The position numbers and the translations under genes were made by a program. Positions 28,871 through 32,767 of a stretch of DNA of 43,929 nucleotides are shown piece after piece. Under the pieces are notes generated by a model. The model ran no database searches and had not been told where the DNA came from. It saw nothing but the letters and a program-made list of their open reading frames with translations. The DNA comes from a virus, in the IMG/VR virus record IMGVR_UViG_3300032236_000806, positions 1-43,929 of that record. The stretch is one strand, 5' to 3'. Each line of letters starts with the position of its first letter. Positions within the stretch are counted from its first letter, which is position 1.

Positions 28871-29113
28871 GTGTCTCTCGCCGCCCGTCTATCGACGGTT
28901 GTAGTGTCCCGCGGCAACCGCGGGTGTGTCACCTGTCAATGGCTGGAAACCCTGTCCAAAGTCGACCGCAGTGCGTTCGATGACTGGGTCATCGGACAGC
29001 ACAGCCTGGTGCAGTTATGGGATATTTGCATCACCGAAACGCCACCGCTCACCGTCAGCATCAGCGGGCTGCGTAACCATGTCCGCCACCATCGGACAGC
29101 CGATGAGTCTTGA
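28871..29113 (+). CDS. small CxxC protein upstream of phosphoesterase
   Basis: An 80-residue protein with GTG 28871 after AAGGAGAACCTA. It includes RGCVTCQWLETL and SLVQLWDICITETPPLTVSISGLRNHVRHHR. The pattern (Cys-x-x-Cys, a helix, then a C-terminal His-rich helix) is a small actinophage family often preceding metallophosphoesterase genes and possibly HTH-like. Function unknown. It overlaps the next gene by 11 bp. Confidence 0.7.
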   Translation: MSLAARLSTVVVSRGNRGCVTCQWLETLSKVDRSAFDDWVIGQHSLVQLWDICITETPPLTVSISGLRNHVRHHRTADES

Positions 29114-30260
29114 AGACCGTCTCGAAGACCTGAAGGCGTACCCGCAAGCCGAAGAAGTCAAATACCAGCCACGAACAGAGTTCGACGGCACCACCGGATA
29201 TTTACAGACCGGGGTGATGAAAGAACCACCGACCGACTACACCGACCTGTTATCTCAGTTCGGATATGACCCTGATGTTGTGCAGATCGTCGGCCACCCG
29301 CGCATCAGCAAGTGGCAGCAACGTTCCCGAATCCGGGGAACCAGCGATTACGAGACATCGTGGCTGACCGCATTCAAGTTCCAGATCTCGACAAAACAGG
29401 CAATTTCCCGAACAGCAGACCTGGACGCCATCGTTGCTCGGGTAAAGAAACAACCCAAGCCCGGGACCGGGCCGCACTGGCTGGTGTTCCAGGCCGGTGA
29501 CCTACAACTAGGCAAACGCAGCCGCGACGGCTCCACCGAACAGATCGTGGAACGCTACTTCCAATCCCTGGAATCCACGATCGCCGAATTCAAAGCCCTG
29601 AAGAAGCACGGCATCGAAGGCATCCAGATTTCCATGCCCGGGGACATGTGCGAAGGCAACCAATCCCAAGCCGGTAGGAACCTGTGGCTCACCCAGGAGA
29701 CCATCACCGAACAAGGCCGCATCCTGCGCCGGCTGATGATGTCCACCGTCGAAGCATTCGCACCCTTGGTCGATCAGATACTGCTCACCGTGGTAAACGG
29801 CAACCACGACGAAGCCCAACGCCAACAGTCCACCTACCCGGGGGACGGCTGGGCCACCGAATCGGCCATCGCCGTATCCGAAGCCCTAACCCTGAACCCC
29901 ACCGCATTCGGTCACGTGACGGTACAAGTACCGGAAAAGTGGTCCGGGTCGATGACAATCCCCGTAGGCAACACCGTCGTGACCGTCGTACACGGCCACC
30001 AGTGGCGTCCCGGGCAAGGCTTCAAATGGTGGTCCGACCAAGCCATGAACAACCAACCCGCCGGGGCCGCACAAATCTTGCAGCACGGCCACTACCACAC
30101 CTGGCAGATCGAAACCACAGAACACAAGACCCGCATCCAATCCAGCACGTTCGATTGCGGATCTGACTGGTACCGGGACAAGCGCGGCGCAACCAACCGC
30201 CGCGGCGCACTTGTCTACCTTCTCAACGGCGGGGAAGTATCACGGATGAGTCTGCTATGA
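29103..30260 (+). CDS. calcineurin-like metallophosphoesterase
   Basis: About 385 residues with all motifs of the binuclear-metal phosphoesterases: GDLQLG (D133), GDMCEG (D181), NGNHDE (N234-H235), VVHGHQWR and HGHYHTW near the C-terminus. It probably cleaves phosphodiesters (nucleic acid or cyclic nucleotides); the substrate cannot be read from sequence. Start ATG 29103 is chosen for small overlap with the preceding gene; ATG 29079 is an alternative. Its place after the lysis genes, rather than in replication, is common in related actinophages. Confidence 0.88.
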   Translation: MSLEDRLEDLKAYPQAEEVKYQPRTEFDGTTGYLQTGVMKEPPTDYTDLLSQFGYDPDVVQIVGHPRISKWQQRSRIRGTSDYETSWLTAFKFQISTKQAISRTADLDAIVARVKKQPKPGTGPHWLVFQAGDLQLGKRSRDGSTEQIVERYFQSLESTIAEFKALKKHGIEGIQISMPGDMCEGNQSQAGRNLWLTQETITEQGRILRRLMMSTVEAFAPLVDQILLTVVNGNHDEAQRQQSTYPGDGWATESAIAVSEALTLNPTAFGHVTVQVPEKWSGSMTIPVGNTVVTVVHGHQWRPGQGFKWWSDQAMNNQPAGAAQILQHGHYHTWQIETTEHKTRIQSSTFDCGSDWYRDKRGATNRRGALVYLLNGGEVSRMSLL

Positions 30261-30481
30261 GACACGGCGACGTGGCATGGATTGTGCTGGCTGCCGGCAT
30301 CGTCATCTACGAAGCCGCCTGCCCAACCGGCGAACTGATGTCCGAAGCCGTTGATCGCTACCGAGCTCGGCACCCATTCATCACTAACACCGTCATCGCC
30401 TATGTGTCCTTGCACCTTCTAAGGCAATGGCCCAAGCGCATCGACCCGCTGCACCAGATCGCCGTCCGGGCATCCCGATGA
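30257..30481 (+). CDS. small membrane protein
   Basis: A 74-residue protein with two hydrophobic segments (about 5-22, VAWIVLAAGIVIYEAAC; about 43-58, TNTVIAYVSLHLLRQW) linked by a cytoplasmic-looking charged stretch, then a basic C-terminus. The pattern CPTGELMSEAVDRYRARHP between the segments recalls an actinophage family (DUF7427-like) that lies close to lysis genes. ATGA overlap with the phosphoesterase. Possible additional holin-like or infection-exclusion role; not proven. Confidence 0.72.
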   Translation: MRHGDVAWIVLAAGIVIYEAACPTGELMSEAVDRYRARHPFITNTVIAYVSLHLLRQWPKRIDPLHQIAVRASR

Positions 30482-30717
30482 TCACCCCGGTGGACAGACT
30501 CCGAAACGCCATCCAGAAACTGCTGAACGCTGAAGGCGATGGATGGTGTCTAGATCAGTTCGTGCTGGCGCTCGGACTTCAACGCCTGAAATCTGACGGC
30601 ACCGTCGAATCCACCGCCTGGGTGTGGGCGCCGGCCGAACAACCCGACTGGCAGACCGATGGGCTGCTCCGGGCCGCATCGGAGTTACGCGAAGAATCCG
30701 ACATCGACACCGACTGA
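30478..30717 (+). CDS. hypothetical protein, last gene of late operon
   Basis: A 79-residue soluble protein starting at ATG 30478. It contains GDGWCLDQFVLALGLQRLKSDG and WAPAEQPDWQTDGLLRAASE, similar to a small actinophage family of unknown role with a conserved GW.L..F.L..G segment. ATGA overlap with the preceding membrane protein. It ends 10 bases before the tmRNA-like element, so that RNA can be co-transcribed with it. Confidence 0.68.
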   Translation: MITPVDRLRNAIQKLLNAEGDGWCLDQFVLALGLQRLKSDGTVESTAWVWAPAEQPDWQTDGLLRAASELREESDIDTD

Positions 30718-30727
30718 TTTGTGACCG

Positions 30728-30810
30728 GGGGCCGTGCCGGTTCTACATTCCGCTGAAGGCCGCACGCGGCACCGGAATGGACGCGGGTTCGACTCCCGCC
30801 GGCTCCACTA
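30728..30810 (+). ncRNA. minimal tmRNA-like (tRNA-like domain only) RNA
   Basis: The 83-nt segment folds as a tRNA-like domain: acceptor GGGGCCG (30728-30734) with CGGCTCC (30800-30806), including a G3-U70 wobble, the alanine identity pair; a D-loop-like TGCCGGTTCTA without stem; a long hairpin (CATTCCG/CGGAATG, then GCCG/CGGC); a 5-bp T-arm (GCGGG, TTCGACT, CCCGC); discriminator A and CTA in place of CCA. Missing D stem, long second stem and GGAC before the T-arm match tmRNA, not tRNA. There is no anticodon arm, tag reading frame or pseudoknot region. A UUCG terminator-like hairpin follows. Product not proven; could be a relic or attachment sequence. Confidence 0.65.
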
Positions 30811-30831
30811 GCTGTTTGCTGATTTGACGTT

Positions 30832-30849
30832 CCCCACCTTCGGGTGGGG
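30832..30849 (+). terminator. UUCG-loop hairpin, likely terminator
   Basis: CCCCACC (30832-30838), loop TTCG, GGTGGGG (30843-30849) is a 7-bp stem with the very stable C(UUCG)G loop. Only a weak T-rich tract (ATCTTTCGTC) follows. It lies after the late genes and the tmRNA-like RNA, so it likely ends the late transcript. Confidence 0.7.
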
Positions 30850-30866
30850 ATCTTTCGTCATTTACG

Positions 30867-30900: not shown

Positions 30901-31017
30901 GCAGGTCGTCTGGGGTACTGTGGGGTACATCCGAAAACGCTTAACAGCAGGTCAGGGGGCAAAATGGCGGTAATTTTGTGGGGTTCGAATCCCCTTAGCT
31001 CCACCCATCTGACCTGC
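30901..31017 (+). other. probable phage attachment site (attP)
   Basis: The core candidate is 30978-31005, a T-arm (GGGG, TTCGAAT, CCCC) followed by TTAGCTCCACC, i.e. the 3' end of a tRNA-Ala- or tmRNA-type gene, the usual target of tyrosine integrases. GCAGGTC occurs at 30901-30907 and 30947-30953 and inverted at 31011-31017; TGGGGTAC occurs at 30911-30918 and 30921-30928. These are plausible arm-type sites. The integrase follows within 0.7 kb. The exact core can only be set by comparison with a host. Confidence 0.65.
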
Positions 31018-31082: not shown

Positions 31083-31658
31083 ATGGCGGACATGTACGAC
31101 ATGAAGACAATCCTTGCAGAGCACTTCGTTCGGAGCTTTACCCGACGATCATCCACGGGCGATTTTGGCTGCCGGGAATGGCGCGGTCTGCGTTCGGTGG
31201 AGGGCTACGGGATCGTACGTATCAACGGGCTGTCGCACGTCGCCCACCGTGTCGCATGGATCATTCATCACCAGCGCCCGATTCCCGCCGACTTGGTCAT
31301 TGATCACCTGTGCTGCAACAAGGGTTGCGTGAACCCGAAACATTTGGAAGCGGTCACGGCCAGCACCAACATGGCCCGTATTAAGAACCCGCCGGCCAAC
31401 TGGGTGTCAACCGGTGAAGGCACCCGGCGGCGGTATCAGACCCAAGCCGAACGGACACGCCTTGAACGTGAAGCTCGGCGGCAGCAATCAGAGCAGCTAC
31501 CAAATAGGCCAGTGGGGGCGAACATGCGTATGCGGAACGGCAAGTATCAAGTTCGGTGGCGGCAGATCCGCGATGGACAATCGTGTGAGCGGTCTCGGAC
31601 TTTCGCATCTAAAGAAGATGCTCAACTGTTCATCGCTTCGTTGTGGCAGTTGACATGA
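31083..31658 (+). CDS. HNH endonuclease with C-terminal AP2-like domain
   Basis: A 191-residue protein. The HNH core reads VIDHLCCNKGCVNPKHLEAV (D74, H75, C77, C78, C82, N84, H87), with the preceding GYGIVRINGLSHVAHRVAW typical of this class. Residues about 146-191 (MRNGKYQVRWRQIRDGQ, FASKEDAQLFIASL) resemble an AP2-like DNA-binding module, also found at the integrase N-terminus. It is coupled to the integrase by ATGA. It could be a homing-type nuclease or a recombination helper. Lacks a ribosome site, consistent with leaderless translation. Confidence 0.8.
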   Translation: MADMYDMKTILAEHFVRSFTRRSSTGDFGCREWRGLRSVEGYGIVRINGLSHVAHRVAWIIHHQRPIPADLVIDHLCCNKGCVNPKHLEAVTASTNMARIKNPPANWVSTGEGTRRRYQTQAERTRLEREARRQQSEQLPNRPVGANMRMRNGKYQVRWRQIRDGQSCERSRTFASKEDAQLFIASLWQLT

Positions 31659-32767
31659 GTAACCGCATTCGCACCCGGGCTGACGGCACGTCATATACCC
31701 AAGTTAGGTTCCGGGTTCGTGGTAAGGAGACTTCGGTGTCCTTCGATGACCACGCTGAAGCGTTGGGATTTGACAAACTAATCCGCAAAGTCGGTGCCAT
31801 CAAGGCGTTGGAGATCACTCGGATTGTGGTGGCCCAGGAGCAGGGCATCACGGTGGGTCAGTGGCTCACTCACTACATCGATCATTTGACCGGTGTGGGT
31901 GCGGAATCGATCACGAATTATCGGCGCTATGTGGAGAAGGATTTCACTTCCCTGGTGCCTATGCCGCTGGTTGCTCTGACACCGGACGATGTGGCGGCGT
32001 GGCAGCAGGCGCTACGGAACTTAGATGGCAGCGTCCCATCGGGCAAGACAGTCGCCAATAAGCGTGGCTTCTTGGCGGGAGCGTTGGCCGGTGCGGTGGA
32101 GCGCGGGCATCTCAAGTCGAATCCGTGCGACAACATTCGGCTGCCGCGGTGGGACCGGGCCGAAATGGTGTTCCTTGAGCCCGACGAGTACCAGTTGTTG
32201 CGTGGTGAGATCCCGCTGTATTGGCGTCCGCTCACGGATTTCTTGGTGATGTCGGGCTGCCGTTGGGGTGAAGCGACGGCGTTGCGTCCGCACAATGTGG
32301 ATCGCAAGGCGGGGACGGTGCGGATCTCGCAGGCGTGGAAGAAGAAGGAAGGCGGCGGGTACGAGTTGGGTGTGCCGAAGACCCGGAAGTCGGTGCGGAC
32401 GATCAACCTGCCCGGGTGGGTGGTCGATCAATTGGATTTCTCCGGGGAGTTTCTGTTCACCAATTCGGGCCGGGGCCGACACCATGCGGGCGGGGTGGTG
32501 CGGAATGGGTCGTTCGCCCCGAATGTGTGGCATCCCGCGATCGACAGAGCGCAGGCGAAGGGGCTGATGAAACAGCCCCGGGTTCACGATCTACGCCACA
32601 CCTGCGCCAGTTGGATGATCAATGCGGGCCGGCCGATCACCGCCGTGCAGGAAATGCTCGGACATGAGTCGATTAAAACGACCGTGGATCTGTATCACCA
32701 CGCCAACCGGACGAGCGGCAAGGAGAACGCCGACGTGCTGGGTGGGTTAATCGATCCGTTGCAGTGA
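31655..32767 (+). CDS. int: tyrosine integrase
   Basis: A 370-residue site-specific recombinase. ATG 31655 is chosen because it overlaps the HNH stop by 4 nt. Domains: AP2-like arm-binding (about 1-45), SAM-like core-binding (about 60-145), catalytic (about 165-360). Catalytic residues: R203 (SGCRWGEA), lysine in GVPKTRKSVRT, H311 and R314 in HDLRHTCASW, H337 (LGHESIKTT), nucleophile Y347 (VDLYHH). It recombines attP with the host site. Its 3' end overlaps a leftward gene by 21 bp. Confidence 0.95.
   Translation: MSNRIRTRADGTSYTQVRFRVRGKETSVSFDDHAEALGFDKLIRKVGAIKALEITRIVVAQEQGITVGQWLTHYIDHLTGVGAESITNYRRYVEKDFTSLVPMPLVALTPDDVAAWQQALRNLDGSVPSGKTVANKRGFLAGALAGAVERGHLKSNPCDNIRLPRWDRAEMVFLEPDEYQLLRGEIPLYWRPLTDFLVMSGCRWGEATALRPHNVDRKAGTVRISQAWKKKEGGGYELGVPKTRKSVRTINLPGWVVDQLDFSGEFLFTNSGRGRHHAGGVVRNGSFAPNVWHPAIDRAQAKGLMKQPRVHDLRHTCASWMINAGRPITAVQEMLGHESIKTTVDLYHHANRTSGKENADVLGGLIDPLQ

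Follow-up and report, generated by a model that had tools for sequence, protein, structure and literature searches.

What could a phage gain from the tRNA-like part of a tmRNA when the rest of the molecule is missing? The question is raised by an 83-nt stretch, positions 30728-30810, of an IMG/VR virus record whose 43,929 bases were analyzed as a whole and are referred to here as the window. The window looks like the genome of a temperate actinobacterial siphophage; its tape measure is closest to those of Mycobacterium and Gordonia phages, and it also encodes a terminase, an endolysin and a tyrosine integrase. A preliminary description of the DNA had seen in this stretch a tmRNA-like RNA of one phage that can be charged with alanine and can neither decode nor tag. 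Nearly all bacteria have trans-translation, and if the broadest reading given below is true, such RNAs would form a phage counter-measure to this process that is made of RNA and the first of its type to be shared by many phage lineages. All window features given below lie on the + strand.

Anatomy of the RNA

The Rfam model for tmRNA (RF00023) matches exactly positions 30728-30810, scoring 61.4 bits where the cut-off is 47 (E 1e-21), and the alignment spans the full model, positions 1-374, with about 300 positions in the middle deleted. The parts named in the preliminary description, including the tmRNA-like and alanine-type character of the whole, can all be located along this stretch. The 5' acceptor strand GGGGCCG (30728-30734) pairs 7/7 with the 3' strand CGGCTCC (30800-30806), and the stem contains G3 (30730) opposite U70 (30804). 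Between the two strands lie a D-region without a stem, TGCCGGTTCTAC (30735-30746; tmRNA consensus GGuUUCGAC), the P2 hairpin CATTCCG/CGGAATG (30746-30779) with an inner part CTGAAGGCCGCACGCGGCAC at 30753-30772, a GGAC junction (30779-30782) that matches the tmRNA consensus, and a perfect T-arm, GCGGG-TTCGACT-CCCGC (30783-30799). The D-stem is absent from CGGTTCTAC, and the second hairpin can be followed as ATTCCG...CGGAAT with an inner CCG/CGG. The 83 nt include A73 and three further bases, the 3' CCA being only partly encoded (ACTA).

What is missing is equally characteristic and had been correctly listed before. Only 36 nt, mostly covarying hairpin, separate the GGTT of the D-region from GGAC, with neither a tag reading frame nor a resume codon among them; the pseudoknots and helix H5 fall within the deleted model positions, and there is no anticodon loop. 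A canonical tRNA-Ala was rejected on account of the missing D-stem and anticodon loop, and ARAGORN calls neither a tRNA nor a tmRNA here. A permuted two-piece tmRNA was rejected as well, the 5' acceptor strand preceding the T-arm on one 83-nt stretch and the permuted tmRNA model reaching 20.8 bits, under its cut-off of 47. As judged from its sequence, the RNA is a stand-alone tRNA-like domain (TLD) of tmRNA, in which the P2 hairpin, short and capped, stands in place of the entire mRNA-like domain and the pseudoknots. Its folding energy is no different from that of shuffled sequence (z -0.75), a measure that is uninformative in GC-rich DNA and was dropped as support, and the case for the RNA therefore rests on comparison.

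A family of covarying RNAs

BLAST of the window region against phages gave no matches, and relatives were sought by structure. The first DNA pattern, which allowed only a short gap between the D-region and GGAC and demanded G3-U70, found 77 stretches in viral contigs. The TLD-only RNAs extracted are mostly 76-81 nt long, and a covariance model (R1) built from 43 of them separates the TLD-only class, at 52 bits or more, from ordinary tRNAs, at 46 bits or less. A second pattern, which put no constraint on pairs 3:70 and 4:69, yielded additional RNAs and brought the alignment to 94 distinct stand-alone TLD RNAs (77 non-redundant at about 90% identity), of which a few at the low-scoring end (L145, L172, L031, L063 and L081) are doubtful or diverged members. 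When the window and its group of close relatives are left out of the training set, the resulting model (R2) gives the window RNA 74.9 bits (E 1e-15); no full tmRNA or tRNA in that search exceeds 38 bits. The RNA had been described as that of a lone phage; it is real in the window, but it has dozens of related RNAs over diverse phages.

Covariation in relatives, to which the preliminary description had looked for proof of the fold, is strong in all four helices. In the 94-sequence alignment, which was fitted to the model and is thus biased towards structure, 95.9% of cells pair, and the covariation score is 0.663, as compared with 0.128 +- 0.009 for shuffled alignments and at most 0.085 with the partners slid; without the window's group it is 0.652. 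Changes on both sides are seen in all seven P2 pairs, in the three inner pairs, in four acceptor pairs and in three T-stem pairs. A structure-free MAFFT alignment of five close relatives keeps 99.1% of the pairs, with eight pairs changed on both sides, a result that none of 500 shuffles equaled. An RNAalifold consensus that pairs the D-loop GGUU with an inner AACC was dropped, the P2 fold covarying far more strongly. In most sequences the D-loop GGUU is nevertheless complementary to AACC or AGCC of the inner hairpin (alignment A1, columns 13-16 and 34-37), and the letters could in principle permit a different pairing or a switch.

The features that are kept are those by which a TLD is known. 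The T-loop reads TTCGANT in 94/94 RNAs, the junction is GGAC in 88 of the 94, and the window's D-region motif, GGTTCTAC...GGAC, has its counterpart in the relatives as GGTTTCGAC. G3-U70 is present in 94/94. For RNAs from the first scan this invariance is circular, since the pattern required the pair; in the 45 distinct RNAs that were picked blind to pair 3:70, G3-U70 is found in every one, and the neighboring pair 4:69 has five forms (GC 33, CG 6, UA 3, AU 2, GU 1). G3-U70 is the identity element of alanyl-tRNA synthetase (AlaRS), and alanine charging therefore appears to be under selection. Purifying selection, as read from the alignment, acts on exactly the TLD features, namely G3-U70, the T-loop and GGAC. 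The inner hairpin is likewise conserved in the family, often as AAAGCCGCAYGCGGAAC, and may mark a further partner.

Several neighboring observations belong here. RNAs at L063:762-841, L081:11816-11895 and L031:11490-11571 are tRNA-like and diverged, with an Ala-type acceptor and a short P2 and without GGAC, and may form another lineage of RNAs that have no anticodon. BLAST matches in S-CRM01, Moby, DLP_6, X1, BUCT628, QDWS595, PA_L9 and RpAliso turned out to belong to complete tmRNA genes of the permuted type and were set aside as not being TLD-only. These genes (L245, L246, L289, L290, L291, L292, L364 and L366) lack a tmRNA annotation in the isolate-phage records.

Distribution among phages and bacteria

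Nearly all of the 94 RNAs come from viral records. The isolate phages that carry one are Streptomyces phages BRock, LuckySocke, GiJojo, pSt2308, Alone3, Riptide and Shaeky and Stenotrophomonas phage Jojan60, of which BRock, LuckySocke, GiJojo, Shaeky and Jojan60 offer material on which to work. The RNA comes after tRNA-Val in six of the Streptomyces phages, and in Shaeky it is surrounded by a densely packed array of tRNA genes. Among 50 carrier records, about one in three has a large set of tRNAs, and many of the others have no other tRNA at all. An SmpB gene was found in none of these 50 records, many of which are fragments, the bacterial genomes used as controls do encode SmpB, and so host SmpB would be needed by any RNA that works through this protein. 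ARAGORN called no TLD-only gene in the carrier loci tested, and genome annotation overlooks such genes. In Streptomyces phage GiJojo, gene 44 ("hypothetical protein", L359:1499-1741) overlies the RNA and is probably a false gene call.

When the first pattern was run over 85,462 bacterial and archaeal species, 39 matches were obtained: 33 are by ARAGORN the 3' ends of ordinary full tmRNAs, four are genuine TLD-only copies, and two (L252 and L283) were assigned to neither class. The four chromosomal copies are in MAGs of Acidimicrobiales, Mycobacterium and Phycisphaerales and in Cellulomonas massiliensis, and each of these genomes contains, apart from that copy, a tmRNA match of the usual size (353-390 nt). 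Genes beside two of the copies (L380 and L381) match phage proteins; none of the tested neighbors of the Cellulomonas copy does. A scan of 398 actinobacterial genomes under strict filters added no chromosomal copy.

The genomic slot

In the window the RNA follows directly on a gene for a 96-aa phage protein (phrog_1791/4307; 30427-30717), the stop codon of which lies 10 nt before it, and the operon also includes an exonuclease/metallophosphoesterase-like protein (28926-30260; phrog_284, E 5.5e-86). The same slot, behind the gene for a 96-aa protein or its homologue, holds the RNA in five phages, namely the window and records L168, L158, L033 and L107. Record L196, which is 76% identical upstream and 85% identical downstream, is by sequence comparison a clean empty site: the RNA is absent, and the distance from stop codon to terminator is 24 nt, as against 114 nt in the window. 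Record L195 has a different insert in the slot. The RNA thus behaves as a precise accessory gene, and the window and L196 form a natural pair with and without it.

The UUCG hairpin that had been reported to follow the RNA is indeed there (30831-30850), but it does not belong to the RNA; it is also present in L195 and L196, which lack the RNA, and it is therefore taken as the intrinsic terminator of the upstream operon. A search for a sigma-70-type promoter upstream of the window RNA found none, which agrees with co-transcription with that operon.

The insert in L195, at ~5690, is accessory too and carries two GTACCTACAG repeats. An insert with the GTACCTACAG repeat is also seen upstream of the RNA in L107 (RNA at 2044-2128, - strand) and L158 (RNA at 559-641, - strand); the repeats look like an operator, and the insert appears to be independent of the presence of the RNA.

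What the RNA may do

The best-supported function that we infer is that of a decoy or modulator of trans-translation, which the preliminary description had also suggested. The RNA would probably be co-transcribed with the upstream operon, ending before the terminator, and would probably be matured in the manner of a tRNA, through RNase P and the addition of CCA. G3-U70 would make it a substrate of host AlaRS, and its intact acceptor, T-arm, D-loop and GGAC junction would allow EF-Tu and SmpB to bind. TLD, SmpB and EF-Tu by themselves dock on stalled ribosomes in crystals (PMC3968760), so that a charged TLD without coding capacity should compete with host tmRNA, and because the phage RNA lacks a tag the outcome would be competition instead of tagging. 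Such an RNA would contend with host tmRNA for SmpB and for the A site of codon-less stalled ribosomes and could block or dampen tagging during infection or lysogeny, presumably to the advantage of the phage. We lean towards the view that the RNA is in this sense an alanine-charged decoy, drawing SmpB and stalled ribosomes away from host tmRNA.

Support for the decoy comes from the match to the complete tmRNA model with only the middle deleted and the TLD features under purifying selection, from the carriers (0/50 with SmpB, and 4/4 of the bacterial carrier genomes with a full tmRNA) and, by analogy, from the inhibition of tmRNA by a TLD like that of mycobacteriophage DS6A (PMC4131195, PMC11915505). 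Against it stand the many other phages that carry full-length tmRNAs instead, and the fact that inhibition by overexpression does not prove a natural function. The published inhibition is, moreover, reported to be independent of charging, and pure titration would leave the invariant G3-U70 unexplained; the conflict suggests that the charged form acts on the ribosome. Either the charged form would do more, by jamming the ribosome or by tag-less rescue, or charging would aid the competition via EF-Tu. The discrepancy between an inhibition that is indifferent to charging and a G3-U70 pair that appears to be selected offers a sharp test of function. For the family as a whole we put forward, tentatively and with slightly more doubt than belief, that these are widespread alanine-charged phage TLDs with an inner hairpin of their own, selected to enter SmpB-marked stalled ribosomes and to disable or redirect host rescue.

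Rescue without a tag is the main rival of the decoy, and we regard it as unlikely, if worth keeping in mind. The alanyl-TLD would enter the stalled ribosome with host SmpB and accept the nascent chain, which would be released untagged; the route would be drop-off followed by peptidyl-tRNA hydrolase, freeing ribosomes without marking proteins for proteolysis. The invariance of G3-U70 implies that charging matters, many phages keep the RNA in tRNA arrays that support translation, and mitochondrial tmRNAs without a tag frame are retained along with SmpB and are thought to help with incomplete mRNAs (PMC11915505). Against these points, there is no known step by which, in the absence of a resume codon, the peptidyl-TLD and the ribosome could be freed, and the sole experiment on such an RNA, as it is summarized in PMC4131195, shows inhibition.

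The position of the RNA has led us to consider that its fold might direct cleavage by RNase P and RNase Z after the 96-aa gene, as a form of 3'-end punctuation with a roleless RNA product. The RNA begins 10 nt past the stop codon in the window, and its G1 falls within the stop in L033; yet such cleavage needs neither G3-U70 nor the tmRNA D-loop nor GGAC, an intrinsic terminator already follows the RNA, and many carriers have the RNA elsewhere, for example in tRNA arrays, all of which makes punctuation improbable. No better, in our estimate, is the prospect that the RNA serves apart from SmpB and trans-translation, as an alanine donor (such as one that feeds a peptide or lipid ligase) or as a sink for AlaRS or EF-Tu; the invariant G3-U70 would fit, but the tmRNA-specific D-loop and GAC/GGAC junction would be superfluous, and a limited survey of neighbors revealed no shared enzyme.

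In L033 (5315-5401) the upstream 96-aa homologue ends with a TAG stop whose final G is at the same time G1 of the RNA, and maturation by RNase P would therefore leave its mRNA non-stop. A similar arrangement has been noted for smpB/ssrA in Carsonella (PMC4131195).

The probable attachment site

A 26-bp stretch at 30980-31005 is identical to the 3' ends of tRNA-Ala genes in 3/41 Mycobacteriaceae genomes tested and is kept in both L195 and L196. It had been a candidate for a second tmRNA-like 3' end, which was rejected as the match is to tRNA-Ala, not tmRNA; from its sequence it is likely to be the core of an attP, which would rebuild the 3' end of tRNA-Ala upon integration. In the window an HNH endonuclease gene (31083-31658; phrog_3593, E 3.2e-24) lies between this core and the tyrosine integrase (31643-32767; phrog_1, E 2.8e-63), and in L195 and L196 the integrase comes after the core at a distance of no more than about 90 nt.

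Integrases often use tmRNA genes, and the nearness of attP and integrase could suggest that the RNA is a functionless attachment-site relic or a captured fragment of host tmRNA, the danger against which the preliminary description had warned. That this is so we consider very improbable: the RNA is whole and lies 170 nt upstream of the attP core, itself the end of a tRNA-Ala; the fold is complete and not just a 3' half, with two acceptor strands that covary; L196 retains attP without the RNA; carriers with the RNA in tRNA arrays provide other contexts; and conservation extends across the 77 non-redundant sequences. Hardly credible at all is tRNA-dependent lysogeny, in which the RNA would stand in for a host tRNA that integration had broken. 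The phage probably integrates at tRNA-Ala, and actinobacteriophages are known to have such systems (PMC10865867), but an RNA without an anticodon cannot decode and the 26-bp core would restore the tRNA-Ala 3' end by itself.

Comparison with known systems

The preliminary claim of a new minimal tmRNA-derived system has to be given up, since a TLD-only phage RNA is of a kind already known from mycobacteriophage DS6A, the tmRNA of which is listed as "(TLD only)" by Lau and Williams (2014, PMC4131195), a case repeated in the 2025 tmRNA database paper (PMC11915505). According to the former, tmRNA in E. coli is strongly inhibited by a DS6A-like molecule whether or not this can be charged, and titration of SmpB is offered as a possible cause (Mao et al. 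2009 RNA Biol 6:355). Both RNAs are phage-borne and consist of little beyond the tmRNA TLD; DS6A, compared here by its published description, integrates at tRNA-Lys, and the window phage probably at tRNA-Ala. The literature searched, which took in few subscription papers, held no further TLD-only phage case and no report of a broad phage family, a conserved inner hairpin or an invariant alanine pair. It is the breadth across phages that is new: what was a footnote in the literature, one TLD-only phage RNA, becomes a family of 94 with a covarying fold and an invariant alanine pair.

With standard tmRNA (RF00023) the phage TLD shares the G3-U70 acceptor, the stem-less D-region, the GAC/GGAC at the base of P2 and the T-arm, but standard tmRNAs are 230-400 nt long, with an mRNA-like domain, tag frame, resume codon, H5 and pseudoknots, whereas the phage TLD has ~80 nt and none of these. 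Mitochondria and the plastids of Mallomonadaceae also have CDS-less tmRNAs, which have lost the tag frame and kept the tRNA-like part; of 97,179 tmRNAs, nine are counted as "standard, no CDS" (PMC11915505). The mitochondrial ones are usually permuted and accompanied by mitochondrion-targeted SmpB, and the plastid ones measure ~65 bp (PMC11915505), whereas the phage RNAs are in one piece, have a conserved inner hairpin, occur beside an intact host tmRNA and have no SmpB gene found with them. The full-length tmRNAs of other phages (Streptomyces and Mycobacterium phages, and in permuted form S-CRM01 and DLP_6) are likewise phage-borne and often located near tRNAs, but they keep a tag frame or a permuted mRNA-like part, and the TLD-only RNAs are without either.
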